This document shows positions 24,990 to 64,000 of a stretch of 64,000 bases of DNA, piece by piece. The notes below the pieces were generated by a model. It had not been told where the DNA came from, did no database searches, and was given only the letters and a program-made list of their open reading frames with translations. The translations under genes were made by a program, and so were the position numbers. This DNA comes from Antedon mediterranea (Eukaryota; Echinodermata; Crinoidea; Comatulida; Antedonidae), in contig NC_092675.1 of the NCBI RefSeq assembly GCF_964355755.1, forward strand, positions 15,513,312-15,577,311. The letters run 5' to 3'. Positions within the stretch are counted from its first letter, which is position 1, and the number at the start of each line of letters is the position of its first letter.

Positions 24990-27520
24990 GTTGTTACCAT
25001 GGTAACTTTTACACCATTCATGCTACGGTCACAAAGCTCCGCCAAATGCGCAGGTAACATCTCACCAGACAGTGTCTCGTTCTTGTAGTGACTGGATGTT
25101 CTATCATACTAGGGGTCAGGACACAAACTTTCGTACCAGCCAAAATCATTTTCTTTTCAACTCCAGGATTTAGTATAAGAAGCGGGAACGTTTGAGCATT
25201 TGGGTCTACTACAGTTCGGCCTAATAAAGCAAATGTCACTGTTTTTGTATGGTTTCTTGATTTTTAAAATGTTTTTACTCGGGGTACCTAGTCTAGTACT
25301 CTCTCATCTTCTCCTCTTCGTCTTCTTCTTCTTCCATCTGGACACTATCGAGTAAAAAGTGCGATTTATAAAGTACTAATTCTCCCTTATTAGTTGTAGT
25401 ATTGAGCTGGGATTTGGCATGAATATACTACAGGGACATGTCCTCAAAGCTATAGAGCCATATAGCCGTATTTGGTAGCGAGGTTATTGATGTTGTATTT
25501 GACGTCACATCCGATCTTATGACGTCATTACAGCTTCTTTTGCTGTACCCCGAGTATCGTACATTCATGGTTGTTTTTTCTAATATTAGTGAGTGCAATA
25601 AGTGTATCGTTGTTTTTTATTTAACTAATTAAATTGTAATTGCAAAATATAATTTATTTCAGCTTTTGGCTGCCACTGTATTTTAATGTTTTTTTTCAAA
25701 TAAAGATTCAGTACCATGAATAATAATAAAAGCGTTGAATAGAAAAACCCTTCGGTTCCACTATCTATTCACCTTCTGTTTCTCACTGGTTCTTTTCACG
25801 TACGCCGTAGCAATGTATTGACACTTCGATGGTATTTCAATAGTTTCATGTATCATTACTGAGCGGCCAAGTGGTTCTCCATCCACCGTGGTACACATGA
25901 TTGGCGCTAGTTCCGTTTCGCACCTGTTTTTATTTCGACTTCCTTTTGACTCCAAATTGTTAAGCAACTTATTGTGAATACCATACCTTAAAATTGGGCC
26001 TCATAAGTACTTTTATGAAGAAGAATCACATAAAAAGTAACAAGTAAATCCTTAAATTGATGATTTTACAGACATGTACCGTTCGCGAATTTAGCATACA
26101 CGAAGTTCAATATTTTCGTTTCTATGGAGCGCCAAAAGAGCAACAACAATAGATGGTTAAAAACTCAGTGGAATGCGTCTTCTTTTAATGCATTTATTAT
26201 TTAAATACACGTTTAATTTTAATATATTTTGTCAATAAAAATGCTGTAACATTTTACTGCTAATAATTTGCTGTTTTCAAATAGCAACCAACCCTAGGCC
26301 TAACTAAGAGTAAGACTATAGACTAAGAGGAATATTATTTAGATCAGGTATACCCCTACAGCAGTACATGTAATATGATGATGAATTTGTCGATTTTCAT
26401 TCCTAAAAGTTCCTGCAAAAACCATGTACAGTATCAACAGTAATAGTTTTGTTGCATTGACATTGACAAAATATGATAAAATTGAACGTAATTTTCACCA
26501 ATAAATGCATTCAATATACGCAATTTACTGAGTTTTTAGACCTCTATTATGATTGCTCTTTTGGCGCTCCATAGAAACAACAACATTGAACATGGAGTAT
26601 GCGAAATTCACAAACCGATGTGCGAGAAACACGTCTGTAAATTCATCAATTTAAAGGATTTATTTTTTACTTTTTGTGTGAAAACCTTCGTAAAAGTATT
26701 TTTGAGGCCTAATTCTGAGGTGTGGTACTCACGATAAAGTTACTTAACCAATTTTGAGTCGAAATAAACGACAGGTGCGAAACGAAACTAGCGCCCACAT
26801 GATTTGCTCGTTCTCCAAGCATAATTCTAGAGTGGACAAGTATTCCCCCGGTCGTTAAGAGGAAATCCATTCCAAGGATGCCTGGTGCTGTTATTAGGTC
26901 CGCAAATATTTCCCTAATGGTTCGGCAGGTAGTACAATACTCATACTTCAACCTTGGCCTTAAGAGGTTTGCCATTCGCATGATTAAAACACGGGCGCAG
27001 GTTCACCAGTATCTAGTAGTAAAAAGAAGTAGAAAACAAGGTGTCTGTTGCTTCAGTATCTACAAACAGGTTCATGTCTGTTCCTGTCATCACGGCCTCT
27101 TTCACGTATAACCCTTCTCTCTAATAAAACAATGGTGCACATAATCTCGTACTTTCTGACTCTTTTGTTTGAACTCGTTCGTTCTTAACAGGTTCGGTGC
27201 AACCCAACTGGTCTGTCACGTTCTCTGATTTACTCGTTACTGTATGGGTGGGCCTCCGTCGAATCCCAACCTTCCACTGGCCCCTGCGGTTGGTTGTCAG
27301 TCAGTCGTTTCCCGACGGTCGTTCAGATTTGCATTTCTTGAGCAAAATGCCATTTCTCTTCACAGCCCTCGTATTCTGGTTCCGCCGATTCCATTGGTTC
27401 CCTTGTTTTACTGGAGTTTTCTCGTTCATTGTTATTAGGATGATCTCGTCCGCTATTACTAGTGATTACATTCGGTTAACTTGTCTATATGCTTTCGGTT
27501 TTGAATAGGCGTGTGCTAAT
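24990..27520 (-). mobile_element. Ty3/gypsy retrotransposon copy 2, decayed
   Basis: Minus strand, element order: a possible gag zinc-knuckle remnant (CEEKWHFAQE, about 27375-27345); protease active-site block NLFVDTEATDT (about 27075-27045, Glu where Gly is usual); ILGMDFLLTTGGILVHSRIM (about 26895-26835), the conserved C-terminal protease motif; a 893-bp insertion; then TTVDGEPLGRSVM (about 25895-25860), and TVVDPNAQTFPLLILNPGVE (about 25215-25155). RT, RNase H and integrase are missing. The TTVD(R/G)EP block shows it is the same family as copy 1. Confidence 0.78.
25903..26795. mobile_element. Inverted-repeat element with 9-bp TSD (MULE-like)
   Basis: CACATGATT at 25894-25902 is repeated exactly at 26796-26804. 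The ends are inverted repeats GGCGCTAGTT(C/T)CGTTTCGC with similarity continuing for about 250-300 bp, including a TTAAATTGATGATTTTACAGA-type block and, at the inner edge, TTTCTATGGAGCGCCAAAAG. 893 bp, no transposase. 9-bp duplications with long TIRs are typical of Mutator-like elements. Inserted in the protease region of gypsy copy 2. Shares its body with the element at 44121-45202. Confidence 0.85.
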
Positions 27521-28106
27521 TTTCCACCTACTATTCAGTAAAATTACCGTATCCTTATCCTTATCAATGAAACATAATATGACCACTTCAGTATTAAAAG
27601 GTATCAACCAGAGGACTGTTCCATAAATTAAGAAAGGGGTGTCAAATTTCACTACAATATACAGTATAAGTCTTCAGGACCAGCCCTACCATAGTTTGGG
27701 TGGAGCTAAGGCAATTTTGAAAAATAGATCTGCGCACCCCTCTCAAACAAGAAAAATGATTACTTAAATTAGACTTAGAAAACAATTATAAACAAATAAT
27801 GAATTAACTTGAAAAATGACAAAATTCATTCACCCAAAAATCCATTTTCTGGGAAACCAATTTGAGCATTGTTTGCTTTAACAGTTAGGGGAAAAATGGC
27901 AAAATTGTTTCTACTTTCTAGGATTTTTATCAGAGAATCTATATTGTTTTGACTACTCTTGTAACATGACCACAGTGCTGATTTTGCCATTTTTCCTCTG
28001 TTCAATTTTTGGTCTGGTCAAAGTGGATAACTATTATGCCACATTAAAATGGTATAATATAACAAATATTTTTTAAGAATTATTTTTTCTGGGGGACAAT
28101 AAATCT
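27521..28106. other. AT-rich stretch with TTAA-MITE remnant
   Basis: The right part (about 27820-28106) ends in GGGGGACAATAAATCTTTAA, the right terminus of the TTAA-MITE family, preceded by a GGATAACTATTATG string shared with the copy at 28434-28716. The left terminus is lost. 27624-27645 matches a string near the 3' end of gypsy copy 1. Confidence 0.5.
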
Positions 28107-28163
28107 TTAAATTACTTGTACAAGTTTGTACTGCTTAGTAGGCATTAAATAGATGATACACAC

Positions 28164-28307
28164 CTGGATAAATGGAGGTGACACTTCCAGCTGGAATGTA
28201 GCCTTTGCTTACTATTACACCCATATCTCCATCTACCACTTTACTAGGTCCACGATGAACAACAAACCCAAAGTGTCTATTCATTACACTGTCCACATCT
28301 TCCGTAC
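28164..28307 (-). CDS. SETD9: SETD9 exon, start of SET domain
   Basis: A 144-base exon with acceptor TTTTTATAG and donor G|GTGTGT. It encodes TEDVDSVMNRHFGFVVHRGP, then SKVVDGDMGVIVSKGYIPAG and SVTSIYPG. The GVIVSKGYIPAG...SIYPG stretch is the N-terminal strand pair of the SETD9 SET domain. Both ends are phase 1. Upstream exons (about 100 residues of N-terminal region) were not found with certainty; the exon at 38126-38223 ends in the right phase. Confidence 0.93.
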
Positions 28308-28433
28308 CTATAAAAAATACATTTTTTATCAATAAAACATAAATTTTATTGGATCAAAATTCTGTTATGCTCTCAATTATTACTTCTGATAATTTTTTGA
28401 TTTTTCAGTTTTATAGTTGCACCGTAAACTTAA

Positions 28434-28716
28434 AGATGTATTGTCCCCCAAAAACACATGAAAAAAAGATTAATTAAATCAGATTTTGACTACCTGTAGG
28501 TTACTTTTTAGTTTTAATAAAGTTAATCCCTTACATAAAAAAAAACATATTAAATGACAAAATAATGGTCAAATTCAACCAAAAACTGCTTTTTTCAGGT
28601 AAATAAATTTTTTTTTATTCAATTTTTGTTCAAAGTGGATAACTATTATGTGATATTGAAATGGCATATTTAAAACAAAATTTTTTTTACATTTTTTTCA
28701 GGGGGACAATACATCT
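28434..28716. mobile_element. TTAA-flanked MITE, copy A
   Basis: TTAA at 28430-28433 and 28717-28720 flank inverted ends AGATGTATTGTCCC. 283 bp. The TTAA target suggests piggyBac or Kolobok mobilisation. Same family as 59742-60286 and the remnant ending at 28106. Confidence 0.8.
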
Positions 28717-28720
28717 TTAA

Positions 28721-29867: not shown

Positions 29868-29961
29868 CACTTTGACTGCCAGAGGTTTTTCCAGTTAGAA
29901 ACTGCCACCGCCAGCGTTTTTAGCCCAATTCGATGTTTATATCAAAGCTGATTGAAACCAG

Positions 29962-29992
29962 GGAAGAGTTAAATTTTAACTCTTCCCTGTTG
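29962..29992. repeat. Long perfect hairpin
   Basis: CAGGGAAGAGTTAA is followed after three bases by its exact inverse complement, giving a 14-bp stem. It lies about 95 bp inside the left piggyBac terminus. Confidence 0.8.
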
Positions 29993-30093
29993 AAACCATG
30001 TATGTGATCTGATTTATATGTAATTTAGACTAAAATAATCATAAAGATTTTAGCTTTACAATGGTATCAAGAACGATTTTTAAATCACAATAT

Positions 30094-35548: not shown

Positions 35549-35552
35549 TTAA

Positions 35553-38303: not shown

Positions 38304-39179
38304 GGGTGTGTAGAAAGCGACGACCTCGAATTGGACGACCCGGGCAACCTCGAATTGGACGACCCATAACACGAAACCGACGACCCCTATAGCCTAGCCT
38401 AGGTCTAAGTGTGGTATAACATCGCGAAGCCGAATATACTGTAGCCAAAGATCTTTAAACCATACCTATAATACTCGCAAACAAGCAATTGATTGAAAAA
38501 ATATAGAAATATCGTCATTTGATACTGAATGTGTCGACACGAACAAACGAACAGATATGGAACGCCAAGAGTGCATCAATAAAACTGCATTCGACTCGAT
38601 TAGCACACAAAATATCATAAACATGGCAAACCAGGTCAAAACGGCCCCTTTTTCAGCGGCGGGTAAGGTTTGACCGTATACAATGCATGTGTGAAATGTA
38701 CAGTAAGCTTTCTTATGGCCCTCCCCATGCACATGTTCGCAACACGCTGCTTGATAGGCCTATAGTGTTCGTTATAAGAAGACGAGATGTAATTATACGT
38801 CTATGGTTTAACCATGTCATGTATAATATTTATTTCTTTTTAATTTATTTTTAATATGTCGAATGCAGTTTTAATGATGCACTCTTGGCGTTCCATATCT
38901 GTTCGTTTGTTCGTGTCGACACATTCAATAGTATCAAATGGCGATATTTCTGTATTTTTTCAATCAATTGCTTGCTTGCGAGTATTATATAAGGTATGGT
39001 TTAAAGATCTTTGGCTATGTTCGGCTTTGGGATGTTATACCACACTTAGGCCTAGGCTAGGCTAGGATATAGGGGTAGTCGGTTTCGTGTTATGGGTTGT
39101 CCAATTCTAGGTCGTCCAATTTGAGGTCGCCCAGGTCGTTGGGGTCGTCCAATTCGAGGTCGTCGCTTTCTACACACCC
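38304..39179. mobile_element. Iteron-ended inverted-repeat element, 10-bp TSD
   Basis: Ends begin GGGTGTGTAGAAAGCGACGA and are inverted over about 300 bp. GTTATCAATC (38294-38303) and GCTATCAATC (39180-39189) are a 10-bp direct duplication with one mismatch. Behind each end is a run of iterons of the form CCTCGAATTGGACGACC. At the inner edge both arms carry TATGGAACGCCAAGAGTGC or its SNP variant. 876 bp, no transposase. Confidence 0.85.
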
Positions 39180-40436: not shown

Positions 40437-43102
40437 TCAACCACTTCTAACAATGGCAGGACATAAATTAAACAATGCACAGCATGTTCTGGCAATCTTG
40501 TCAACCTTAGGTATGCCTGTACTGTCTGTTGTCATGTACTCAATTGGTAATGTTGAACTTAAAATTGAGTACTTTTGACGGACACCACCGATGACCCTCT
40601 CCATATGAATTCGTAAATGAGCAATTTTTCTTGTGGTTTCCACCTCAAGAGCAGACAGCTGTTGTTTTCCCTTCTTAAAAGCAGGAATCTTTGCTTCGCA
40701 ACCATAAAACCCAGCATCATCTTTTATGTCAAAACCTCGGTCGGCAAGGATGACATCCCCAGGTAGCAGATAATCAAAAAAATCTGATGTCAATGTTATG
40801 GTCTTATCTGTACCACAGCCTTCCAATGCTGCAGACAAATATGAAATTGACCCGCATGGAGTGCAGCCAATTAAAAACTTTACTGTATTGTGGTGCTTGT
40901 AGTTGGAAAACAGTTGTGCCCTCGCTTCAAGACTTGAGGGCCACTCGCAAAAAACCTCAAAACAGTCAATTATTACTGCTACCTTCGACTCCAATGCAAT
41001 TCGAAATTGCATTGGCATGGTTTTCCACAACACCGGTACAAATCGGTACGCAATGTCCTGATCTCTAAGGTTCAGTCTAAGTTTGAACAGTACAATTAGT
41101 AACTGCTGAAATCGACTTACTGATGTTCTACTCAGGAATCTGCTTTTAACTAGTTCAAAAACCAACATCAATACTGCAAATGAAGGCAACCCTGTGTAGA
41201 AATGAGTTCGCTCATTGTTATTTTTAAAAGTTAACTCTGTTATTGGCGACTCCTGTAACAAGGCCTGTGACTGGGCCTGTAAGACATCTATGTCAGCACA
41301 ACACATATGTGTCTGTGTTGACATATCCACACCAAACTCTACTGTTTGAGTCGCTCGTTCTACAGGAGAAACATCTTCCATATTAGCCTCACCTAATTGG
41401 AGATCTAACGAACCTTCCACAGCAATACATTTCTTTTTTTCCAGTTCTCTTTTTTGTGACCTTTCGTATCGCTCCTTATCACGTTTTGCGGTGTGATCAT
41501 CCAGGTCCAACCTGCCCATGTCTTGAGTTGGAGCCCAATCAGGATGGGCTTGCTCAGCAAGTGGTGCAGGCTTGCCTAAAAGAAATATGTATACATGTTA
41601 AATACAGTATATAGACGTAATATAGCAATTTTTGGGTTTAATAAAAAATATTCAATTCGGTGGTTATAAATACATTTTGACAACACCCTGTATGTACAGA
41701 CTTCTATTAATACCTATGATATGCATAACCACCTATGATTAACTATGGTATAGTAATCAATTCACAGCATGAAGGCCTGCCAGCCCAGCATGGAATGGAT
41801 GATATCAACTGAGTTAATTAATGCACATGCATCCTCCATCCTAATTATAGATAGCATAGGCCTACTCGTAAACAATGTAAATTGTGTGAAACTATATCAA
41901 ATATATGTATATAAATATACTAGTCTAGGTTAACATACAATACTCAACAATGTTGAAAATCAATACATACCTCCAATAAAATGTTTAGAACATACACGAT
42001 AATTTTCGATTTTGTTAACATTTATGTCCTCTCTATGAATGTTGGCTAGCCAGACCCTCTGCCTTTTGGCCTTTATTTCTTGCTTTTCAGCACCATGTAG
42101 CTGTCACACCAAAATCAGTCCGGGCCAAAATCGGTCCGGTGGAACAGTTTTGGCTGCCAAAATCAGTCCGGGGGACCATTTATGGCTGCCAAAACCTGTC
42201 CGGCCGGACCAATTTTGGCCGCCAAAACTGGTCCGGCCTGGATAAAATCGGTCCGGGCAGTAGGACTGTTTTTGGCCGCCAAATATGGTCCGGTCTTACA
42301 AATATATGGTGTGCAAAATTAGTCATAATGTATACCGGTATATCATTAAAAAAAGGCCATGATTAGTCATTATATTGAAAACTATGGGGTTTTATTTGTT
42401 ATTTTAATATTATAAATTAAGCCTGTTTTTTTTATTATCATTATTAGTAGTAACTCATCAATAATTAGTACTAATTGTTAGGCTTTTTGTATACAATATG
42501 TATCTCTGCCTGTTTTTAATCCATTTTGTTCTTTTTTAACATCTTCGTTTCCCCATGATGTTAAAAACAATTTAATTTATTAATTATTTATGGTTATTCA
42601 ATCAATATATCAATTCAATACAATTATTATAAAACAATTATCCAATATTGATTAGGCTGAGGAAGGAAAAAGGCCTCAATCATAAATAAAATCTAGCTGG
42701 CAATATCAGCGTCTCATACCCGTTCATGTGAGTGTGTGGCAGGCCGAAATATGAGTGAACACCTAACTAAGTCATGTTTTTAGATAAAATACATTTATTT
42801 ATAGTATTTATCCGACAAGATAACTTACTAATATATATCATGGAATATTTTTCTAGCCATAAACAACTTAAAACAGCATCATAGGCCTAGTAATTCAATT
42901 AAAATCGACAGAAGAAAAGCCCGGACCGATTTTGGCAGTGGCGGACTGCTTTTGGCCACAATTTTAGAGCCCAAACTGATTTTGGCCCCGGACCATATTT
43001 ATCGTGACATAGCCTTGAAACTTTAGGAATTCTAAAAAAAGAAATTCCTACATCTCTGTTTGAACGACTACCACAATCTTTCACTGCACAGAAACTTGGC
43101 AT
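40437..43102 (-). CDS. THAP-DDE transposase (IS5/ISL2EU type)
   Basis: Two exons. Exon 1 starts MPSFCAVKDCGSRS at 43102 and, across the 42102-43009 insertion, continues as EKQEIKAKRQRVWLANIHRE to VCSKHFIGG, ending at 41971 before GTATGT. Together these form a C2CH THAP zinc finger (CAVKDC...CSKH, with W and P conserved). Exon 2 (41575-40437, acceptor CTTTTAG) begins KPAPLAEQAHPDWAPTQD and contains a DDE_Tnp_4-like catalytic domain: VIIDCFEVF (first Asp), VILADRGFDI (second Asp), HMERVIGG (Glu). The 360-codon exon 2 frame is uninterrupted. The only visible lesion is the insertion in exon 1, whose removal leaves the frame open. Confidence 0.85.
42102..43009. mobile_element. Iteron-ended element inserted in THAP exon
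   Basis: TAGC at 42098-42101 and 43010-43013 is a 4-bp target duplication. Ends begin TGTCAC. Behind the left end lie about ten copies of CCAAAATCGGTCCGG in both direct and variant forms (42110-42300); four inverted copies lie at the right (42915-43000). 908 bp, AT-rich centre, no transposase. The 4-bp duplication sets it apart from the 9-10-bp TSD elements. Confidence 0.8.
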
Positions 43103-44120: not shown

Positions 44121-45202
44121 GGGTGTCACGAAAGCTCAGACCACGAAAGCTCAGACCCCCTAAGACCTAAGATCACGAAAGCTAAGACCCAACACCTAAG
44201 ATTAAAAATATTTATCTTTCGCACCTGCCTTGTATTTTAACTCCCAACATTTTTATTCTGAATACCACACCTTAGAATTGGCACTTTCATGAAAAAGAAT
44301 CACATAAAAAGTAACAAATACATTTTTAAATTGATGATTTTACAGACGTTTTTCTCGCACACAAAATGACTAGCCTACAGTACAGTACCCCATGGGCCAT
44401 GTTCAATGTTTTTGTTTCTATGGAACGTCAAAAGAGCAAAAATTATATAGAGGGCTGAAAACTCCGTGGAGTCCATCTACAGTGTGGATGGAACAATGTA
44501 AAATTAAAATTGTTATGATAATAGTATAATCATGCAAGTACGAAGAAATAAATACTGGCAAATAAATTTTAATTTAAAAATCATGATAAGTTTTTTTGTT
44601 TCGTTTTCTTTCTGTTTTTATACTTGTACTATTATTGTTGCTCTTTTGGCGCTCCATAGAAACAAAAACATTGAGCATGGGGAGCTCGAGGAGTTACATT
44701 GTCATTACAGTATACAAAGAAACACATCTGTAAAATCATCAATTTAAAGGATTTATTTATTTGTTATTATGTGTTTCTCCTTCTGAAAGTACTTATAAGT
44801 CCTAATTTTAAAGTGTGGTGTTCAGGATAAAGTTAGTCAACAAATTTGGAGTCAAAATACAAGAAAGGCAGGTGCGTAAGAAAAACATCCTCTGAAGCAA
44901 CACAATGGAGTAAATATATACCAACAAACAACCCGTCAAGTTTGTTTGTTGTAAAGAAAAAATATACATTTACTCAACGGGCGAAAATAATGTGAGTTTA
45001 TCTTTGTTTTTCGGTAGTATTAAATTATATTTATGGTAATAAATGAAACCTACTGTGTTTAAAATTATGTATGGATAAACAAGTATTGTTTTTAAGCTGT
45101 AGTATATCTTAGTATTTGTAATCTTAGGTGTTGGGTCTTAGCTTTCGTGATCTTAGGTCTTAGGGGGTCTGAGCTTTCGTGGTCTGAGCTTTCGTGACAC
45201 CC
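44121..45202. mobile_element. Iteron-ended element, 9-10-bp TSD (MULE-like)
   Basis: Ends begin GGGTGTCACGAAAGCTCAGA and carry three or four iterons CGAAAGCT(C/A)AGACC on each side, followed by TTTCGCACCTGC and the same inverted-repeat body as the element at 25903-26795, up to TTTCTATGGAACGTCAAAAG on the left and its GCGCC variant on the right. CATTCTTGTG at 44111-44120 recurs at 48574-48583 once the next element is removed. 1082 bp, non-coding. Confidence 0.85.
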
Positions 45203-48604: not shown

Positions 48605-49114
48605 GCATGGATTAGTAAGCGAAAGTGCAGTACTGTACCAACCTTTTACGTATATTAAATTTCAACCATGGTGAAAACCTGTAACGATAAGATTTCCATT
48701 TCGATGACACATTTCTGAACAACATTAATTATTTAAAAACTAGGCCTAGCCTACTAGGCCTCCTACCAAAGATTGTATAGAGCGGCGCAAGATAAGATGT
48801 TTCCAAGCTCCTATAACAATTCCCTGCTCCTACATAAACACGAGGAGCCTCGCTACTTTTACGGAGCGCCATTTATGCCTTTATATACTTCCGAAATAGA
48901 AATAGTGCTAAGGTAACTGATCGGTGGACCAAACTTAGCACCGGTGTAGCACGTCAGTGATATAAAATAGAATTAAGTCACTAATTTTAATATATTTTCG
49001 TATGTTAATACACTGTGCTCAAGTGGACCCAATTTGTAGCCAGTGGAGCACAATGATATAAAATAGAAACAAGTCACTGAATTTTAATATCTTTTCGTAT
49101 GTTAATTTAGGGCC
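48605..49114. other. Non-coding stretch with 100-bp direct repeat
   Basis: A segment GATATAAAATAGAA(T/A)(T/C)AAGTCACT... through TTTTCGTATGTTAAT occurs twice about 102 bp apart (48959 and 49061). A CCAAAGATTGTATAGAGCGGC string at 48768 resembles the repeat in front of the transporter exon at 61.0-61.1 kb. Confidence 0.5.
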
Positions 49115-50552: not shown

Positions 50553-52374
50553 CAAGAGAGGCAGGCCATTGCCAAATTGCGTCAGCGTAATAGACCGGCA
50601 GCCCAGAGACATTTGGTTAGATGAGCTAGGTACCAATATCTGACTATTTAAGTGTGTTGGGGGGGGGGGGGGGCACTTGAAGTCAATGAAAATGGGAGTC
50701 TGCCGGGTACCCCCTGCTGCGACCCCGAAAGGTGCTAAAAAATCGGCTCAGGTTAGATGAGAGAGATACCACCTAATTTTAACACCATGGGATGCCCATT
50801 GGCATCCTTATACCAGTATCACAAACGACAGACTTTTTGTCTGCTGCAATAGGCCCGCCAGACCCCCCGAGGGAGGGCCTAAAATTGGGATAGCATAGAT
50901 GAGTGAGGTACCACTCAAAATTAATGCCAAATGAACAAGTTGTGTTCATACAACACTAAATGGATAACAACAGACTAATTGTCTGCTGCACTGCAAGTGC
51001 CAGACACCCTAAAGTTAGACTTCAGACCCCCCTTCCCCCAACTAGCCCAGCTTAAATATTGTAGATACCACCAGCAACCAATGTTATATGATTTAGCACA
51101 TTGTAAGCAATACCAAATGACCTATTACAGACTATCTGTACACTGCCTTGGCCCTCCCAGACACCCTAAAGTTAGACTAGAGACCCCCCTTCCCTCAACT
51201 AGCCCAGCTTAGATATTGTAGATACCACCAGCAACCAATGTTATAGGATTTAGCACATTGTAAGCAATACCAAATGACCTATTACAGACTATCTGTACAC
51301 TGCTTTGGCCCTGGCAGACCCCTCTAAAGTTCGACTAGAGACCCCATTTACCCCAATAGTATAGCATACCTTAGATATTGTAGATAACACCAGCAGCCAA
51401 TGTTATATGATTTAGCACATTGTAAGCAATACCAAATGACATATTACCGACTATCTGTACACTGCTGCCTTTAGAATGGTAAAATGGTCATTTCATCGTC
51501 ATTGATGTGATATATTTTCAATTGTTTTGTGATAGTTCGATTAAAGTTAAACTTTATTCAATTAAACATGTTGTTTTGGGTTTTTTTTTATGCTGGTGTT
51601 ATCTACAATATCTAAGGTAGGCTATACTTGGGGTAAATGGGGTCTCTAGCCGAACTTTAGAGGGGTCTGCCAGGGCCAAGGCAGCAGTGTACAGATAGTC
51701 GGTAATATGTCATTTGGTATTGCTTACAATGTGCTTATTGACTGCTGGTGTTATCTACAATATCTAAGGTAGGCTATACTTGGGGTAAATGGGGTCTCTA
51801 GTCGAACTTTAGAGGGGTCTGCCAGGGCCAAGGCAGTGTACAGATAGTCTGTAATAGGTCATTTGGTATTGCTTACAATGTGCTAAATCATATAACATTG
51901 GTTGCTGGTGGTATCTACAATATCTAAGCTGGGCTAGTTGGGGGAAGGGGGGTCTGAAGTCTAACTTTAGGGTGTCTGGCAGGCCTATTGCAGCAGACAA
52001 AAAGTCTTTCGTTTGTGATACTGGTATAAGGATGCCAATGGGCATCCCATGGTGGTAAAATTAGGTGGTATCTCTCTCATCTAACCTGAGCCGATTTTTT
52101 TAGCACCTTTCGGGGTCCCCTGGGTCTAGACGCAGCAGGGGGTACCCGGCAGACTCCCATTTTCATTGACTTCAAGTGACCCCCAACACACTTAAATAGT
52201 CAGATATTGGTACCTAGCCCATCTAACCAAATGTCTCTGGGCTGCCGGTCTATAATGATATTATCATTAAACCCGCTGATAAAGGTTCTGCCCTGTTGCC
52301 ATGGACATCAAATTTTATGAAGAGGAGTCCTTAAGACAGCTAAACAATCCTCTTCATCATCGTAAACTTACAAC
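50553..52374 (+). pseudogene. Penelope-like RT N-terminal piece, split by foldback
   Basis: 50553-50590 reads KQERQAIAKLRQRN. After the foldback, 52256 onward reads DIIIKPADKGSALL and RQLNNPLHHRKLTT up to 52374, where the BEL/Pao LTR starts. KPADKG is the conserved N-terminal RT block of Penelope elements. Orientation is opposite to the central RT piece at 49906-50440. Confidence 0.75.
50591..52252. mobile_element. 1.66-kb foldback element, TAA target
   Basis: TAA at 50588-50590 and 52253-52255 flanks inverted ends TAGACCGGCAGCCCAGAGAC. The arms stay inverted-similar for about 700-800 bp, and each contains two or three direct blocks of about 150-170 bp (CAGAC...CCCTAAAGTT... to TATCTGTACACTGC). 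A run of 15 or more G at about 50660 replaces GGGGGTCA of the other arm. The small loop is at about 51480-51590. A TAA duplication fits PIF/Harbinger target preference (TWA). No coding capacity. Confidence 0.82.
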
Positions 52375-53272
52375 AATTGAGTAAATTAACGCCGTTGTTT
52401 AAGAGTATTTTAAAAAACGATCGGTGAGTTAATCTATTTTATTGTATTAAACGTGATTATAAAAGTATTAGTTATATTAGAACGATTTAAATGCCGAAAT
52501 CATAGTCTATAAATACGGTAACAGTATAGCTAGTTAGTGAACTTAAAGTTTGGAAGGAAATTACTAGTATGTTTAATTACTTAATCAACATTATAGCTTA
52601 TGGTTGAACTAAGTTGTGGATTGAATGATACGGCATATGTATTAGTAATGCATGTTAGTTGTAGATGCCTAAGAACATTATATTATTGGAACTATATTCT
52701 ATCAGTGTATTAATGTAAAAGTAAAATGTTAGTAATGTTCTACACAAGTACATAACGCGGATTGATATCATTTTGAGTTTCTATTGTGCTGAGGTTGGGG
52801 TTCGGCTCGTGAATGTTGATCTCTGATTAATGGTATTTTGGGGTTAGAAGTTTCTGAGTGTAGAAAGATAAGGAGAGATTTTATTACTTTGATTTGATCT
52901 ACTTTTATTAGTTTTGAGCTTACAATTTTACGGAATGATTTAACATGTATAAACGTTCTTGTGTTTTTTTTAGGTGATATATAACATTTCGATGTTCAAG
53001 CTGTTGAGTAATTTGAGTTGAGTTTTGGATGTCGAAAAGTGTAAGTTTAAGTATACACTTTGATCATGAGCTGAACTTTAATTTTAATTATCAATAGCTT
53101 AGATTATACATTTGTTACACTGAGTTAAACGTTCTAAGATTTACGTATAGTATTGTATTTTTATTGATAGGTTCGAACAACCTACTTGAGATAATCAGTT
53201 GGGACACAATAAATCCACTATTCAAGTCAGTCTGAGTTCACGAGTTTTTTTATCAGTTTGAATATCGAAACA
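52375..53272 (+). repeat. BEL/Pao 5' LTR, 5'-shortened
   Basis: Matches the right LTR from AATTGAGTAAATTAACGCCG to ATATCGAAACA. It lacks the first roughly 110-120 bp present in the right LTR and begins directly against Penelope sequence, so its U3 start has been lost. Confidence 0.85.
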
Positions 53273-53306
53273 TTCGAACACTTGGCAAGATTGTCAACGC
53301 ACAGAG

Positions 53307-54539
53307 ATGGAGGATGCAAAAAGGCACAGACGGAGGAGAGAACGGAGCTTTAAAACAAAGGCAGAGGAGATGAAAACATCGGTACACGCAAATCATCCAC
53401 CGGAGTTGTTAAAAGATTTGTATGAAAAGTTGGACGAGTCATTCCAAAATTTAAAGATTGCGCACGAGAAGATACTAGATCTGACTGAGGCTGACAAAGA
53501 AGCGGAAGAAGACGCATGGATGCTACCACGGATAGACGTTCATAGCGCGATCAGACTACTCTTTTATAAACATAGAAAAGATCAAGAAGAGGCGGTACAA
53601 AAGGACCCCAAAGACGGAATGAGACAAACCGAAACACATAAAATTGAGCTAAAGAGAATGGAGTTGCCGAAATTCAATGGGGACATAAAGACATACACGA
53701 GGTTTAAGAAATTTGTGGAAAAGGCTACACATCCAGAGCAGTTGCCTTTCAGACTTCGGTCTTGTTTAGGTAACGAGGTGAATAAAGTTGTACAAGCAGC
53801 TGAAGACGATTATGAGCAAATGTGGACCCTACTAGACGTGAAATATGGCGATAGACACAAGCTGGTCAATGCGCTCATAGGGGACATTCTGAAGCAAAAT
53901 CCTTTAAAGGAAGGAGAAGAGAAACAATTTGTTGATTTCATAGATCTAATTTCAGCATGCCATCGAAATCTGAAGCGGATGGCAATAGAGCACGAGATGA
54001 ACAATACCAGAGTAATAAGTGAAATTGAGAGTAGGTTACCCGACGATCAAAAGAGAAGATGGGTCAGACTAATACATGATCCTCAATCGAAGGATAAAAT
54101 AGAAAAAGACGGTAAACTGAAGATTCTTTTGGACTACCTAGAAGAAGAAGCCAAAAGTTTGAAATATATGATGACTAGCTTACACGAAACTAATCAGAGA
54201 CCAAAACAGCAACGCAGCATTGTCAACACGGTATTTACAGAGAAGCCCACAGATATTGCTGCTTGTATCTTACATGACAATGCTAAACACCAAACGCAAG
54301 ACTGCAAAGGTTTTAAGGCCATGTCAATGCAAGAACGAAGAGAGGTCATCAAACAGAAAAGAGTTTGTTTCAAATGCCTCAAACATGGGCATCAAGTGAA
54401 AACATGTAAGTTGGGAAATTGTGGAAACGATGGATGCAGTAGGAAGCATCACCCGTTAATTCATTTTCCACCGAAAAAAGAGCCAGCTTCAAATACTCAG
54501 AACACCGCAACGTCGCAACAGACTAGTTACTGTAGTTAA
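53307..54539 (+). CDS. BEL/Pao gag polyprotein
   Basis: 410 codons, uninterrupted, starting MEDAKRHRRRRERSF. The central part (LPKFNGDIKTYTRFKKFVEK and following) is a DUF1759-type gag domain. Near residues 350-365 a CCHC knuckle CFKCLKHGHQVKTC is followed by a second Cys/His cluster (CGNDGCSRKHH). It would form the nucleocapsid-containing structural protein. The stop at 54537 separates it from pol, which starts in the protease region; whether read-through or damage is unknown. Confidence 0.88.
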   Translation: MEDAKRHRRRRERSFKTKAEEMKTSVHANHPPELLKDLYEKLDESFQNLKIAHEKILDLTEADKEAEEDAWMLPRIDVHSAIRLLFYKHRKDQEEAVQKDPKDGMRQTETHKIELKRMELPKFNGDIKTYTRFKKFVEKATHPEQLPFRLRSCLGNEVNKVVQAAEDDYEQMWTLLDVKYGDRHKLVNALIGDILKQNPLKEGEEKQFVDFIDLISACHRNLKRMAIEHEMNNTRVISEIESRLPDDQKRRWVRLIHDPQSKDKIEKDGKLKILLDYLEEEAKSLKYMMTSLHETNQRPKQQRSIVNTVFTEKPTDIAACILHDNAKHQTQDCKGFKAMSMQERREVIKQKRVCFKCLKHGHQVKTCKLGNCGNDGCSRKHHPLIHFPPKKEPASNTQNTATSQQTSYCS

Positions 54540-54559
54540 GTACCGGCACTGACGCGCCG

Positions 54560-57500
54560 TGAATCTTAATGGCCAAGAGCGTGATAACGAAAGGGGGAAC
54601 CAAAGCCAACGCGATGTTTGATACGGCCAGTACGTCATCCGTTATATTGGCAGACGTAGCTGAAAAACTAAAGTAGAAAGGAAAGCCGCTGACAGTCTCC
54701 GTGACAAAATTTGGCGGTGAAACTGAGCAAATCGAGACATTCAGTTATACATTGCCGCTAAAGAAGAAGTATAATGGATATATTAAAATAGAAGTATTTG
54801 GGATGCCACGCATTACAAACAGACGACTCCCTCAAGACACTGAGAAGTTAGCTGACATCTTCAAGGTGGAAAAGCATCTGATAGAGAGACCTACAGGTGC
54901 GGTAGAATTGTTGATAGGAGGCTTAGGAGCAGACAATGCAAGTCTATTTCCGAACATTCTGCGGACTGAAGGGAAATTGGCTCTATGTGAAGGGACGTTT
55001 GGAGTAATGGTTTTTGGTAAACATCCTGTGTGTCGGAGTGAGTCTAACGCAACCAATCTTACGTACATAGAAAAACAGGTTTCTTCGCAATTCCTTGATA
55101 TAGAAAGTATGGGAGTTGCTTGCAATCCGAAGTGCGGAAGTTGCAAGTGTGGCAATTGTCCTATTGGGTCAAAACGATTTACCCTAAAGGAAGAAAGAGA
55201 ACTGAATCTTATTGACGAAGGTTTGAGTTATTCAGATGGTAAATGGACAGCCAAATATCCATGGATCAGAGATCCTAAAGATTTACCGGACAACCGATCG
55301 GTTGCGGAAGCGAAACTGAGAGCAACCGAAAAGAGATTGCAGAAAAATGAGAAATATGCAGAGTGCTATGCTTCACAGTACAGATGGATGATATGTTAGA
55401 GCGGAAAGTTGCTCGTAAGTTATCTGACAGTGAGATGAGGAGCTATAAAGGACCTGTTCACTACATATCACATCACGGAATAGCAAAACCGGACAGTAAA
55501 AGTACACCTTTATGAATTGTTTTTAACAGTAGTGCCAACTATAAGGGCCATGTGTTGAACGAATATTGGGTCAAAGGACCAGACGTTAACAATAACTTGT
55601 TGGCCGTTTTATTTCGATTTAAAAGAGAACAAGTTGCTTTAGTAGGAGATATCAAGAAAATGTACCACCCAGTATTGATATTTCAATGTTGGACCAGCAT
55701 ACCCATCGCTTTCTTTGGAGGAATATGGAGATAGATCGTCCAATTCACACTTATTGTGTCACAGCGGTGAATTTTGGAGATGGACCATCTGCTACTATGG
55801 CTATAAAAGCACTACAAAAGACAGCAGAGCTTTCGGCAGAACTGTTTCCGGAAGCAGCACAAACGCTACAGGAAAACGTGTATATGGACGATATAGCCGA
55901 TAATCTACAGACCGTAGAAAAGGCCTACGAGAGATCCGAAGAGATCAACGCTATACTGAGCAAAGGAAGTTTCAATGTAAAAGAATGGACCATCTCAGGT
56001 GTAAACATGGACACTACCACATTTTTAGGGTTAGAATGGAACCCCCGAGACGATAAGCTAAAGGTACCAGTACCAACGTGCTGCGAAGAAGTAGGAAGCC
56101 TGACTAAGAGGAAATGCTTAGGTGCAGCCAATTCCATATATGATCCATTGGGGTTACTATCTCCGGTGATCGTAAGAGCAAAGATACTACTGAGAAATTT
56201 GTGGGGAAAGAAGGTGGATTTGGGATCAAGAAATTGAGCCGGGAGACTTAGACGAATGGCACAGCTTTCTAAAGGATGTTAAAAATTGCGAAAAGGTGTC
56301 AATACCTCGAAGTGTAAAACCAAGCAAACAAAGCGAAAACCCTACGTTGATAATGTTCTCAGATGCCTCAGAAGAAGCTATGGGGACAGTTGCCTACATC
56401 AGATATGAGACGAATCTTGGGGTCTTCGAATCTCGCTTGATGGCTGCTAAAAGTAGAGTTGCCCCCGTGAGAATAACAAGTATAGTCAGGTTGGAGTTGA
56501 GCGCGGCAGTAATGAGTGTGCGACTAGCAAAAACAATCAGAGAAGAGAGCAGAATCCCGTTTGTAAGGGTTTTATACCTAGTAGACAGCGAAATTGTCCG
56601 ATCCATGATACAGAAAGAGAGCTATGGTTTTAAAACATTCGCTGCGACCAGGATAGGAGAAATTCAGCAGTTTAGTGACTCTACTGACTGGTTCTGGGTT
56701 GCCGGCAAAGATAACATTGCAGATATTATTTCTAGGAGTATTACGAGCAAATGTTTAGAAAAGAATAAACAGTGATTCCAGGGGCCAGAATTCATGAGAA
56801 ATCCTTTAGAGCAATGGCCAATCTCTCAGAGTTGTAGCGTTTCGGACATACCAGAAAGAGTTGGAGTGATCATGGTGGCAGACGTAGAGGAAGTGATAGA
56901 AAGCCCTATTAACATTAAAAGATTTGGAAGCTTCGACAAATTGTTAAAAACAACCGCCATGGTTAAGCGCATAGCAAAGCAAAAAAGCTTTAAGTCCGCT
57001 GGAATAGATCTGAACGAGAACGACATATATGAAGCCGAACGGTATTGGATCAAGACTGTACAACGTCCGATAAGAGACTTAAAGATTAAAACGCCAGTAG
57101 CATTTACGAACAAATATGGTAGCTTAGGACCGATGATAGACAACGATGGAATCGTGGTAGTGGGAGAGAGAATCAAGAACCATGTTCATTTCAGTTACAA
57201 TAACAAACTAGTACCTCTACTTCCAACAGATCATACGTTTTCTAAGTTGTATACCGAGAAGGTACATAAATTATCTCACAGTGGAGTGAGCGCTACTATG
57301 GCAAAGGTTAGAGCAAAATATTGGATAATCCGATTAAGGCGCATAGTATCATCAGTAAGAAACAAGTGTATGGGCTGCAGACGCCTTGAAGGGAAAGTGC
57401 AGGAACAAATTATGGGATCACTACCTATCCAAAAACTAAAACCGTCACCCCCGTGGACTTATGTAGGGTGTGATCTGTTCGGCCCATTCAGAGTAAGAGG

Positions 57501-58348
57501 TGAAGTCCAGAAGAGGACTCACGGCAAGGCGTATGGAGCGATACTAAACTGTCTAGTGACTAGAGCTGTGCATCTCGATTTGGCGGTTGACTACAGTGAG
57601 GGTGCAGTGCAGAAAGTATTTAGGAGGTTTTCTGCGATAAGAGGATATCCATCAGAAGTATTTACGGACTGTGGGTCACAGTTGGCAGCGATGCATGAGA
57701 CACTCAAGAAATCGTCGCTGGAGTATAATGTTAAGTGGACATAATTTATAGTACGCCGGATGCTCCTTGGCAAAATGGGGTTACTGAGTCTTTAATTAAA
57801 GGCATAAAGAAAGCACTATTTCATACAGTAGGTGAACAAGTGTTGTCATTTGAGGAGCTACAGACCGTGTTATTTGAAATATTGGATCTGCTAAATAGTA
57901 GACCAATAGGTCAACATCCTACTAGTCCGGTAGATGGCACGTATCTTTGTCCGAACGACTTGTTGCTGGGTAGATCTGATAAAGCGGCACCTATGGGACC
58001 ATGGAATTTAATGACAGGGGAGGTCATGCGAGAAGGATGAGATACATGCAGTGTCTGATAGAGGAGTTCTGGCAGAAATGGACCAAATGTTATTTTACGT
58101 CATTGATTGTGAAAAAGAAATGGAGAACGGAATGTAGGAACTTGAAAGTTGGCGACGTAGTATTAATACAAGAAGAAGGAATTAAGCGATGTAAATGGAA
58201 GACAGGAGTAGTTGAAGAAGCAATTGTTAGCAATGATGATAGAGTGCGCAACGTGATTGTACGATCGACAACAAATACTGGAGCTATAACAAGATTGAGA
58301 AGAGCAATTCAGAGATTGGTATTATTACTACCTGTTGAAGAGAGTTAA
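54560..58348 (+). pseudogene. BEL/Pao pol, broken
   Basis: Order: aspartic protease with MFDTAS (about 54615), stop TAG at 54674-54676; peptidase_A17-like region; RT with VGDIKKMYH (about 55645) and VYMDDIADN (about 55875); DPLGLLSPV; RNase H (MFSDASEEAMG, 56350); integrase with HxxSH...CxxC (57265-57380), YVGCDLFGPF (57460), VFTDCGSQL (57660) and GVTESLIKG (57780); C-terminal DUF5641-like tail (KVGDVVLIQEE). Frame changes or stops occur near 55399, 55515, 55730, 56235, 56775, 57742 and 58038, so no functional polyprotein is made. Confidence 0.9.
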
Positions 58349-59376: not shown

Positions 59377-59741
59377 CTTTTATAAAAACTAGTTTACGGG
59401 TCTGGAGTAGCCTACCGTATGATGTAGGCCTATTTTGGGCAACGCGTTTCAATTTTCATGTGATTCCTGGAAGAAAGGGTCCACTTTATCATAACTTGTT
59501 ATTTCGTTTTTAAACATATTCATTCCTAGTATTTTGAGACCAAAACTTTGTGACTTGGTTGCTAAATATTTTTATGGTCATTTTCTTGATCATCAGTGGT
59601 CATGATATGTCTTTTTGCACTTGTTCATTAGAGTGATATCAATATGAGTGTATTTTGATATTTAAGCAAAAACAACATTTGCTAGTTATGTAAAATGTAA
59701 GTGTGCTCCACACAAACATGTTTGTACCAGCTATAGGTTAA
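59377..59741. other. Non-coding stretch right of BEL/Pao
   Basis: No gene seen; AT-rich with one TAGGCCTA site at about 59425. Confidence 0.4.
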
Positions 59742-60286
59742 AGATGTATTGTCCCTTTGACTAATTCAACAAAAAAATTTTTTTTTATATTTCGAAAAAA
59801 AGTGGGTCATTTTGAAGTATCATAATAGTTAATTAACTTTCACCAAAAATTAGTCGAAAAAAAAATAATTTAACCGAAATACAGAAGTTTTTTTGTTCAA
59901 ATAACTTTGACTTCCAGTCAAAGTTTTCGATCAAAACATATCTCATAATGCAACGCGCTTGTTTGGCTACTCTGTATGCATAATCATAAAACTTCTTCGC
60001 GATCTGTGTGAAAACACCTTCCCAACCGCGACGAGTTGCAAACAATCCTAATTAGCATCATGCATAATGCATAACTAATGGTTTGAAATCTTTGTTTACT
60101 TTCGCTTGTGACGATTTTCCAGACGAAATGTAATCAAATTAATTTACCTGTTAATTACGTAAACTTGTTGTTTTTGCCTCGAATTTTCGACTTAAAGTGA
60201 ATAACTTTAATATTACTTTGATATGGCCAATTTATATTTAGAATATTTTTTTTTTCATTTTTTGTGTTTCAAGGGACAATACATCT
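59742..60286. mobile_element. TTAA-flanked MITE, copy B
   Basis: TTAA at 59738-59741 and 60287-60290; inverted ends AGATGTATTGTCCC. 545 bp, larger than copy A and with a different centre that includes a GACTTCCAGTCAAAGT inverted string. No coding capacity. Confidence 0.8.
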
Positions 60287-60299
60287 TTAAACGTCATAA

Positions 60300-60970
60300 G
60301 GTGTTTTTTTAAATTGTGTGTATTTCTGTTGTATTAGAGCAAATATAAATATATATTTTGGGAGTAATTTGAGAATAAATTATAACTTTCTGACTAGTGG
60401 TTGCTTAGATATTGATATGGATATTTTCTTGACCAATGGTCAAAAATAAATTCACGATCATTTTTGACAAAAGTTGTCCATTAAAGTGAATAGAAATGTG
60501 TATCTTCTACGACCATATCCTCCCAACAATTTCTGAGATATGAAAAGTGTGCTCCAAGCCAAACATTTTTTTACCGGCTATATGTCAAAGGTCAAAATTA
60601 TCGTTTTATTGGCAGTTTTATGATTTTTATTACATTAGAGGAAAGTATAAACATATACTTTCCGAGTAATTTGAGACCACAATTATCACTTTCTGACCCA
60701 TGGTTGCTGAGATATTCATATGGCTAATTTATTGACCAGTGGTCAGAAAAGGGGTTTCCGTCCACTTTTGGCAAAAGTTTCCCATTTTGAGTGAATAGAA
60801 ATATAGGTGTTCTGAGTAGTTTGGTACAAAAAATTTTCCAATACAGCCAGTAGTTAACTTTGACGATATTGACCTTTTGGCCCCTGTACTGACCAAGCAT
60901 CCCAATTTTTTTTCGGCCAACAGCAAAAAAATTGATTTGTATTGATATAAGGAAGCAAACAAACATTGTA
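60300..60970. repeat. Diverged tandem blocks with GGTCAAA strings
   Basis: Two blocks of about 300 bp repeat the order: GGAGTAATTTGAGA, AACTTTCTGAC(T/C)..TGGTTGC, AGATATT, TTGACCA(A/G)TGGTCA, CA(T/C)TTTTG(A/G)CAAAAGTT. The blocks resemble those in the foldback arms at 1.4-4.8 kb in style and wording and may belong to the same superfamily. Confidence 0.5.
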
Positions 60971-61029
60971 TGTTGGCATAGTTAGCTAGATTTACTCATT
61001 TACTAAACTAAATTTATATGTGGCTCTGT

Positions 61030-61138
61030 GACCAAAGATCGTATAGCGCCACCTACTGGAGGAAAAAAATCGTCCCTCTCCCTCCCCCTCTCGACCAAAG
61101 ATCGTATAGCGTCACTTCGTGGCGCTATAGTATCTTTG
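61030..61138. promoter_or_regulatory. Repeat and hairpin upstream of transporter exon
   Basis: GACCAAAGATCGTATAGCG occurs at 61030-61048 and 61094-61112. The second copy forms a hairpin with its inverse (61096-61115 against 61119-61138, stem about 20 bp with few mismatches, loop three bases). It lies 90-200 bp before the ATG at 61229, so it may be a short inverted-repeat insertion in the promoter or 5' leader. Confidence 0.45.
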
Positions 61139-61228
61139 CTCTCGACTAGAATAATAATAATAGTGTCATATCTGATTCAATTTAAGTTGTTAACTTGTTC
61201 TCTCTACCACCACCACCATCGATCAAGC

Positions 61229-61353
61229 ATGAGTGTTGAAAGAGCCACACAAGTGTTTGGAAACCGATTTTTATCTATTGCTAGTGCGATTTTCTATGCA
61301 TCTAGTTCTTTTTTCATAGTAATTGTCAATAAAAACATCCTTACCAATTACAA
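61229..61353 (+). CDS. Nucleotide-sugar transporter (SLC35D-like), exon 1
   Basis: From the ATG at 61229 the exon reads MSVERATQVFGNRFLSIASA, then IFYASSSFFIVIVNKNILTN and Y, ending at 61353 before GTTAGT (phase 2). The segment is one hydrophobic transmembrane helix followed by VNK..LTNY, the conserved start of SLC35D1/D2-type transporters, which move UDP-sugars (for example UDP-glucuronate, UDP-GalNAc) into the ER or Golgi lumen. An in-frame ATG at 61028 would add a repeat-derived leader and is unlikely to be used. No later exon was found up to 64000, so intron 1 is at least 2.6 kb. Confidence 0.75.
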
Positions 61354-61375
61354 GTTAGTTGAATTCAATTATATA

Positions 61376-61503
61376 TAGGGCCTAGGCTAGGCTAGGCTAG
61401 GGCCTACCTAGGGCCTAGGCCTAGCTAGTAGGCTAGGCCTAGCTAGCTATCAATGTATCATAGCTAGCTAGTAGGCCTAGGCCTACCTACCTGTAGTAGG
61501 CTA
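61376..61503. repeat. TAGGCC-rich cluster
   Basis: Dense overlapping TAGGCC, CTAGGC and CTAGCTAG words immediately after the transporter exon donor. Built from the same TAGGCCTA palindrome that is scattered elsewhere (127-140, 227-240, 34978-35035, 36535-36635). Confidence 0.8.
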
Positions 61504-61590
61504 GAGGGGATCCAGTCAAGTCGCCCCATCGCAAAGTCGCCCAAAACTAAGTCGCCCCATCGCAAAGTCGCCCCAAAACAAAGGGATTAC

Positions 61591-63187
61591 GGTCGAAGCG
61601 GCCGCCAACTAAAGCGGCCGCTAGTTCAATAATGGTAATCTGTATGGAACGCCGTGTGCGCTTTGATTGTCGTTGTTTTGTAATCTTTGATTGTCATTGT
61701 TTCGACAGGTTTTCTTTACCTCGGACGTAAATAACAATCTACATTATTATGTAACTTATTCTCTTTTTTTTACAGATTGAATGTGATACGCGTACGTTCT
61801 TTTAAACGAAATGGCGAATCGATGATTACTTATTTTAACTGTTCTAAATGATATGTTTAATAAAGTCTATAAAATACATTGTGGTGTTTATATTAATATA
61901 ATATAATAATAAGCCAATTATTAAGAATTATATATAAATAAACCAATCAATAAAGTATATCAAAATATATAAATATATTAATAATTAAAAATATTTGTTA
62001 TTTTATATTAATTAATTAGTAAAGTAACTAGTAGTGTTCGCAATCATAATTTAATTACAATAACATGATGACAGCAATTTATTTAATATTCTACACTATT
62101 TTATTAATTCAGATATTTAAATATTGATCAATTGAAAATGAGTTTTAAATACTAAAATAAGATGAAAGTGTCTGTTTGATACGGTAATTAATTACGCGAA
62201 TTTCTGCTAATAACTCGACTGACGGCCAGCAATAGTGCTGCTGCACATTAGGTGCGCGTCCCATGTTGCTTTATTGAAAACACAAACAATGTATTACAAT
62301 GGAATAACACTTAAATGTATAACACACCCTATTACTAATAATAAAAACCTAGATTCGATAGTACCTGTAAATGAGATATAAATATTCGGCAATACCGTAC
62401 GTAAATTATTATTGCAATACTGTATAAAGATTCGATAGTATGTAAACAAGATATAAATATTCGGCAATACCGTACGTAAATTATTAATGCAATACTGTAT
62501 AAAGATTCGATAGTACAGTGTAAACGAGATATAAATATTCGGCAATACCGTACGTAAATTATTATTGCAATACTGTATAAAATTCGATAGTTAAATGTAA
62601 ATGAGATATAAATATTCGGCAATACCGTACGTAAATTATTATTGCAATACTGTATAAAATTCGATAGTTAAATGTAAATGAGATATAAAGATTCGGCAAT
62701 ACCGTACGTAAATTATTATTGCAACACTGTATAAAATTTGATAGTTAAATGTAAATGAGATATAAATATTCGGCAATACCGTATGTAAATTATTATTGCA
62801 AGACTTTATAAAATTCGATAGTATGTAATGAGATATAAAGATTCGACAATAACGTACGTAAATTATTATTATTGCAATACTGTATAAGGATTCAATAGTA
62901 TATAAACGAGATATAAAGATTCGGCAATACCGTATACGTAAATTATTATTGCAATACTGTATAAGGATCCAATAGTATGTAAACGAGATATAAAGATTCG
63001 GCAAAATATATTTCGATAGAGGCCTATGTATTAGTTAATAGTAAATACAAATAAAATATACATTGATTTATCGGCAGGCAGGCAAACTTAAATCAACAAT
63101 CACAATCAAAGATTAAAGCGCACATGGCGTTCCATACAAATGACGATATTAAACTGGCGGCCGCTTTGGTTGGCGGCCGCTTCGACC
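61591..63187. mobile_element. Inverted-repeat element with NotI-type iterons
   Basis: Ends begin GGTCGAAGCGGCCGCCAAC(T/C) and include a second AAGCGGCCGC about 14 bp in, on both sides (inverted). Further in, both arms carry TGTATGGAACGCC(G/A)TGTGCG, the inner block shared with the elements at 38.3, 44.1 and 25.9 kb. Centre is AT-rich with a minisatellite. No transposase; no exact target duplication seen. Confidence 0.75.
62350..63005. repeat. Minisatellite, 75-79-bp unit, about nine copies
   Basis: Units contain GAGATATAAATATTCGGCAA, TACCGTACGTAAATTATTAT and GCAATACTGTATAAA. TTCGGC recurs at 62385, 62460, 62539, 62615 and 62692. Minus-strand ORFs through this region are by-products of a period near a multiple of three. 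Confidence 0.9.
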
Positions 63188-63323
63188 ATACTCCAAACAA
63201 AGTAGCCCCGGCACAGTCGCCCCATCGCAAAGTCGCCCCATCGCAAAGGGAAACTGATCACTCCGGCCGCGCTTAACTCCGGCTGCCGTATCAGTTTAGC
63301 ACGATGTTATGCACTCCGGCCGC

Positions 63324-64000
63324 GGGTGTGTCGAAAGCGAAGACCTCGAAAGCGAAGACCGAAGACCTCGAAAGCGAAGACCCTGCGAAATGGTAGTGTG
63401 CACAAAATCCGACCAAAATCATACAAAATCGTGATAACACCTTGAATTTACAGATTCTAAAAAAAGATTTTCGATTTTAATTGTTATGTTATCAACAATC
63501 ATGACTTTATCTATGAACAAGCTCACGCGTTTTCGCCAATGGAGTTAATATGTGATATGGTTTTACGAACAAACACATCGCGCTATTTGCAAGGCGACGG
63601 ACGCACAAGAAGGACATCGCACAGAGAATTGAATTGAATGCAAGCTTACAATTTAAAACCATAGCCAACTCAGAGAATAATTTCTTTGTAGCACACGTCG
63701 CCTACAATTTAAACCCATAGCCAATTGTTTATAAGTATAGAAATAAACTACATAAAAGTAAATTGTAATAAGTAAAGGATGGCGGTATATAGGCTTTTTT
63801 AGGCTTATTTTAGAGCCTATATAAATGTGTTTTTTATCTATAATATTTGCCTATTGTTTATTATCTAAATTTGTGAATAAATACAATAAGATATTCATTT
63901 TCCTGTATTGTTTGTATTTAAACTTTTACATTTTGCCCATTGTATACTATTGCTGTTTTACTTAATCGCCAGTTTAAAAAATGTTTTCTAATGTATTCAT
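63324..64000 (+). mobile_element. Left end of another iteron-ended element (partial)
   Basis: GGGTGTGTCGAAAGCGAAGA followed by CCTCGAAAGCGAAGACC units (63324-63392), very like the terminus at 38304. No inverted partner occurs before 64000, so the element either continues beyond the window or is truncated. A TACAATTTAAAACCATAGCCAA-like string occurs twice at 63648-63670 and 63701-63724. No gene seen. Confidence 0.6.

Follow-up and report, generated by a model that had tools for sequence, protein, structure and literature searches.

A constant IS3EU-like block inside the exchanged termini of non-autonomous DNA transposons of Antedon mediterranea

Introduction

Can the outer ends of a transposable element be replaced while an inner recognition sequence stays the same? 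DNA transposon superfamilies are defined by one transposase paired with one kind of end, and the 64,000-bp stretch of the crinoid Antedon mediterranea analysed here (contig NC_092675.1, positions 15,513,312 to 15,577,311; referred to as the window in the rest of the paper) contains four elements, E1 to E4, that carry the same short block inside different termini. An initial annotation of the window, made from the sequence alone, had described them as one inverted-repeat family whose constant inner module occurs with different ends, and had suggested that they may form an undescribed MULE-like group.

Several other repeats are present in the window. Positions 7770-9111 hold 31 tandem copies (97% match) of a 43-bp unit, and large nested inverted repeats, with arms of up to 228 bp that are 93-100% complementary and consist partly of a 157-bp tandem unit, are found at 50590-52253. 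The remains of a Pao/BEL-type LTR retrotransposon at 53262-58348 contain several broken frames with DUF1759, Pao peptidase A17 and integrase H2C2 domains. On the minus strand, a 386-aa open frame at 40437-41597 has DDE_Tnp_4 and HTH_Tnp_4 domains and codes for a Harbinger/ISL2EU-type transposase.

Results

The inner block is frequent in the genome and is a joint conservation maximum of E1/E3 arms

The block, with consensus TATGGARCGCC-N6-GC, lies on both arms of all four elements and faces inward, as the initial annotation had reported (Table 1). In the 354-Mb assembly (18 contigs), the 11-mer TATGGARCGCC occurs 3,635 times compared to 34 times for its reversed control. The 20-mer originally proposed for the block gave 1,859 matches genome-wide with at most 2 mismatches compared to a single match for the control, and was matched in none of 100 shuffles of the window. 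Among the first 100 matches listed, 29 of the 40 neighbouring block sites separated by less than 6 kb are inward-facing pairs. The distance between the block and the end of the element is 58-300 bp in E1 to E4, except on the longer arm of E3 where it reaches about 540 bp. The E4 blocks match the 20-mer over TATGGAACGCC and over the GC at positions 18-19.

Table 1. Positions of E1 to E4, their inner blocks and associated features in the window.
Feature	Position	Strand	Sequence	Description
E1	25903-26795		GGCGCTAGTTCCGTTTCGCACCTG (ends); GGCGCTAGTT (tip)	893 bp; no iterons
E1 left inner block	26122-26141	+	CTATGGAGCGCCAAAAGAGC	exact match to 20-mer
E1 right inner block	26555-26574	-	CTATGGAGCGCCAAAAGAGC	exact match to 20-mer
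E2	38304-39179		GGGTGTGTAGAAAGCGACGACC (ends)	876 bp; 15-bp iterons
E2 left inner block	38555-38574	+	ATATGGAACGCCAAGAGTGC	4 mismatches to 20-mer
E2 right inner block	38879-38898	-	ATATGGAACGCCAAGAGTGC	4 mismatches to 20-mer
E3	44121-45202		GGGTGTCACGAAAGCTCAGACC (TIRs)	1082 bp; 90-bp iteron TIRs at 44121-44210 and 45113-45202
E1-like core inside E3	44217-44883			arms 70-74% identical to E1
E3 left inner block	44418-44437	+	CTATGGAACGTCAAAAGAGC	2 mismatches to 20-mer
E3 right inner block	44640-44659	-	CTATGGAGCGCCAAAAGAGC	exact match to 20-mer
Single arm, C-variant block	48860-48883	+	TACGGAGCGCCATTTATGCCTTTA	further family
E4	61584-63194		GGATTACGGTCGAAGC / GGAGTATGGTCGAAGC (GGATTACGGTCG.. 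/ GGAGTATGGTCG..)	1611 bp; corrected ends
E4 duplication	61576-61583 and 63195-63202		AAACAAAG	exact, 8 bp
E4 left inner block	61642-61661	+	GTATGGAACGCCGTGTGCGC	
E4 right inner block	63118-63137	-	GTATGGAACGCCATGTGCGC	
End of related iteron family	63324-63382	+	GGGTGTGTCGAAAGCGAAGACC	

We scored conservation on six arms of the E1/E3 group, leaving out the block copies L031-L090 because these had been chosen by near-exact match to the block. The block is the joint maximum (0.975 compared to a mean of 0.65), and one further stretch is conserved equally. The arms of E2 and E4 have the block in common (11-12 bp exact, above chance with 0 of 300 shuffles) and little else. This conservation peak, together with the sharing of little but the block by E2 and E4, suggests that the block may have retained a function.

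In E1, E2 and E4, no 6-bp direct repeats accompany the block; its flanks are inverted rather than direct, and the inverted repeat is continuous through it. A simple IS3EU insertion (see below) therefore cannot have produced these arms, and the independent small insertion against which the initial annotation had weighed its own proposal does not describe these three elements. None of 30 E2 and 30 E4 arms has a block detached from the arm sequence of its family, so that the inner ends show no sign of being cut on their own. A text search of the literature for the block sequence returned unrelated papers only.

Four terminus types are associated with family-specific target duplications

The four elements proved to have four types of termini, with family duplications of 8, 10, 10 and 8 bp for E1 to E4, and thus do not form the single family first described. 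E1 (388 end matches genome-wide, about 190 elements) has TIRs of about 220 bp, and its tip and block are about 220 bp apart. Its copy in the window is flanked by the 9-bp direct repeat CACATGATT, as annotated, but all 8 family copies assessed have 8 bp. For E2 (334 end matches), in which both the TIR and the tip-to-block distance measure about 282 bp, the annotated 10-bp duplication with one mismatch (GTTATCAATC/GCTATCAATC) is correct and typical, as 10 of 11 copies have 10 bp and one has 9 bp. The E3 family has 972 end matches, which correspond to about 490 elements that vary little in length; the copy in the window has no target duplication, against 10 bp in 10 of 10 copies of the family. 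Single copies are hence misleading on duplication length. The E4 family (198 ends) has 16-bp iterons, a TIR of only about 58 bp and a tip-to-block distance of 58-59 bp. Its annotated bounds, 61591-63187, fell 7 bp short of the true ends on each side and missed the 8-bp duplication, a length seen in 8 of 10 copies of the family, with 9 bp in one. Duplication lengths, the comparison on which the initial annotation had staked its proposal of one group, thus differ between families, and their regularity within each family is too great for a single machinery with variable output.

The interior of E4 contains an 8.5-copy array of a 77-bp unit (62353-63004), and changes in the copy number of this unit may cause the variable length of E4. 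E4 is itself an insertion in the array of a different iteron family, whose AAGTCGCCCCATCGCA iterons lie on both sides of it (61518-61583 and 63211-63248). The fifth end announced at 63324 does exist, with neither a partner end nor a block within the next 2.2 kb. Iterons of the CACTCCGGCCGCG type at 63256-63323, which belong to a further block-bearing family (compare L095-L098), directly abut this GGGTGTGTCG end.

E1 and E3 share one core within exchanged termini

The body of about 250 bp said to be common to E1 and E3 was recovered as two pairs of homologous arms, 70-74% identical over 225-270 bp. The E1-like core of E3 abuts the left TIR and is separated from the right TIR by about 220 bp, which places the blocks 298 and 544 bp from the left and right ends, respectively. 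The shared core, the unlike termini and the 8-bp versus 10-bp duplications together demonstrate that termini were exchanged around one core. The combination of a constant inner module with different termini is thus supported for E1 to E4, and the exchange itself is demonstrated for E1 and E3, though not as the property of a single family. Since E1 and E3 are both present at high copy number, E3 is an amplified unit and not a chance nesting. This suggests that an E1-like element was once nested in an iteron element and that the composite was then amplified to give E3; a duplication at the junction of core and TIR could not be proved.

Nesting followed by amplification can be seen at a later stage in E2. 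Most long E2 copies contain a complete second iteron element that has its own block variant, TATGAAACGCC, and is flanked by CCCCATGCA, while the same site is uninterrupted by it in short copies; such composites do occur. In L033, the nested element has AAGTTGAGCCGCCGAC iterons and an inner TATGAAACGCCAAATGC and was amplified along with its E2 host; its ends, GGATTAGGCC / GGATATGACC, resemble the tips of E4. We rejected long E2 copies as autonomous elements, as L111 has no ORF longer than 109 aa and the 155-aa ORF of L112 has no Pfam match and apparently lies in a separate insertion. Short E2 pairs were likewise rejected as empty sites, since they have 10-bp duplications and are copies that have lost internal sequence.

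The block is the extreme tip of families with 6-bp duplications

In the family F_A (279 end matches genome-wide, mostly about 800 bp long), the block forms the extreme tip, and 8 of 10 copies have exact 6-bp duplications flush with TATGG..CCATA. It is also the tip in F_D, for which one pair has the 6-bp duplication GACATG. IS3EU elements have TA..TA termini and usually 6-bp duplications (PMC10045372), with TAYGG..CCRTA termini in fungal families (PMC12730594). F_A and F_D thus have the signature of IS3EU (and GingerRoot; PMC10045372, PMC12730594), which leads us to read the block as an IS3EU-type end. The inner block of E1 to E4 has the same sequence, but there it is internal, the tips are GG or GGG and each duplication measures either 8 or 10 bp. 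Judged by sequence and signature, the block would therefore be an IS3EU-type end that is not an end in E1 to E4; its descent from IS3EU is argued from about 11-13 bp and from the tips of F_A and F_D.

The block recurs in further families. The C variant TACGGARCGCC, present on a single arm in the window, has 302 genome copies compared to 40 for its control and is internal to longer arms where sampled; TACGG-variant pairs of 3-5 kb were rejected as autonomous elements, the block being internal there too. The block also accompanies iterons of the CTCCGGCCGCG type in L095-L098, where one pair has an 8-bp duplication, and of the CACAATTAAAGAAGTCCG type in L093/94 and L103/104. Beside a MULE transposase fragment, L018:1050-1420 carries two unlike iteron-plus-block arms, one of CGCGACCGATTTCAAA iterons with TATGGAGCGCCGCTAG and the other of GGGTGTCTGATCATTTCGGCCGCC with TATGGAACGCCC. 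Altogether, at least nine families have the inner-block design.

The transposase loci read have neither E-type end pairs nor convincing flanking blocks

Animal MULEs produce 8-10-bp duplications and have subterminal tandem repeats of 9-15 bp (PMC5225508). On structural resemblance, the outer ends of E1 to E4 could belong with MULEs: all have duplications of 8 or 10 bp, a trait not exclusive to MULEs, E1, E2 and E3 have long TIRs, and E2, E3 and E4 have subterminal iterons. The proposed MULE-like character is borne out by these outer features but not by a transposase. Only 36 PF10551 (MULE) matches exist in the genome, and in 30 of these loci, read with 1.5-kb flanks, there was no MULE DDE domain between such ends, no pair of E-type ends and no strict match to the block, hence no MULE autonomous partner. 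Looser block matches lie near two of them, L003 and L018, and correspond in L018 to the neighbouring iteron elements.

The genome also has 77 matches to the integrase-core domain PF24764, which we take as a marker of IS3EU, including groups of identical copies. None of the matches listed is flanked by the block. One group has an element end near ACTGAATGTG / ACTGAATGTGAACAG and extends more than 4.5 kb past the domain, and in a second the copies diverge within 1 kb, one of them containing LINE-like sequence. Probing the boundaries of these two groups did not lead to an IS3EU-type partner. The loci read thus contained no autonomous element with the outer ends of E1 to E4 or with the block at its ends.

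Discussion

We propose that E1 to E4 are non-autonomous DNA transposons with two-part ends, in which an IS3EU-type end has been kept inside exchangeable MULE-like termini, an explanation to which we give about an even chance of being right. The outer part consists of a GG or GGG tip, in many cases with 15-16-bp iterons behind it, and varies among families; it would be cut by the mobilising transposase and would set the duplication (8 bp in E1 and E4, 10 bp in E2 and E3). The inner part is the constant block, which has the sequence of the extreme tip of the elements with 6-bp duplications; it would descend from IS3EU-type ends and may serve as a second binding site. The outer ends would be of MULE type and moved in trans by outer transposases, and new ones would be gained by the nesting of small elements and amplification of the composite, so that the driver can change and the core stays. 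The broader form of this proposal, in which one inner recognition block is common to elements that different transposases cut with 6-, 8- or 10-bp duplications and a core lineage repeatedly switches driver as termini are exchanged as modules, is more tentative.

The same data could also be produced by one lineage with a genuinely bipartite end, whose single group of transposases binds both the inner block and fast-evolving tip iterons, much as P elements have internal inverted repeats. The termini would then differ by divergence and concerted evolution of the iterons, and the 6-bp elements would be relatives that cut at the block. At least nine families show the order of tip, iterons (in all but E1), spacer and inward block, which favours a trait of the lineage over repeated capture, and for this reason such an origin keeps substantial weight. 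The block is moreover the constant part of families that are otherwise unalignable, as well as a conservation peak in the E1/E3 arms, and GGGTGT tips with similarly built 15-bp iterons are common to E2, E3 and the end at 63324. However, duplications are fixed within each family yet unlike between families (6, 8 and 10 bp), and different duplication lengths usually mean different transposases among DDE transposons. E1 lacks iterons altogether, and the alignable cores of E1 and E3 with their unrelated tips indicate replacement rather than gradual divergence. We regard descent from one bipartite lineage as less likely than the exchange of termini between lineages proposed above.

Less probable still is a passenger role, in which the block belongs to a non-autonomous IS3EU element that is nested in each outer element and takes no part in its movement. 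Free elements with 6-bp duplications do have the block as their tip, the long E2 copies show that a nested element can amplify along with its host, and in E3 the E1-like core directly adjoins one iteron TIR but is about 220 bp away from the other. The continuous inverted repeats of E1, E2 and E4, devoid of 6-bp direct repeats beside the block, speak against it, as does the absence of the palindromic 6-mer expected had the insertion hit the middle of a fold-back; the block would also have to have been captured exactly and independently many times. We hold it very improbable that the block is a host-factor site, or a promoter with a start codon, acquired convergently by many elements. It begins as ATG GAR CGC (Met-Glu-Arg), with variation at third codon positions (GAG/GAA, CGC/CGT), and recurs in the same orientation in many families. 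Yet in E1 and E3 a stop codon follows after a few codons, for which reason we rejected the block as a start codon, and its exact placement at the tips of the 6-bp families would be unexpected of a promoter.

Among animal MULEs, Muta1 and Muta5 (PMC5225508) resemble the E elements in their long fold-back TIRs, subterminal tandem repeats and non-autonomous derivatives with varied interiors, but their descriptions contain no counterpart to the constant inner block, and the single family Muta1 makes duplications of both 8 and 9 bp, in contrast to the E families, each near-fixed at 8 or 10 bp. The composite-like KolobokP (PMC9587614) is likewise a eukaryotic DNA transposon made of parts with their own short inverted repeats. 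Its long repeats are direct, its duplications are 3-5 bp and it encodes a transposase and an endonuclease; the E elements instead consist of nested layers in inverted orientation that have no coding capacity. Nested or chimeric MITEs of the ordinary kind, in which a small element lies inside another and is moved by the outer ends, are comparable to the long E2 copies, but not to E1, E2 and E4, in which the block is part of a continuous TIR and belongs to a design found in at least nine families.

If the proposed two-part structure is correct, non-autonomous elements would be able to outlive their driver by taking on the ends of another element, and classification by an internal motif or by termini alone may give contradictory answers. 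The exchange of termini is directly testable, as a single genome contains about 190 E1 and about 490 E3 elements.
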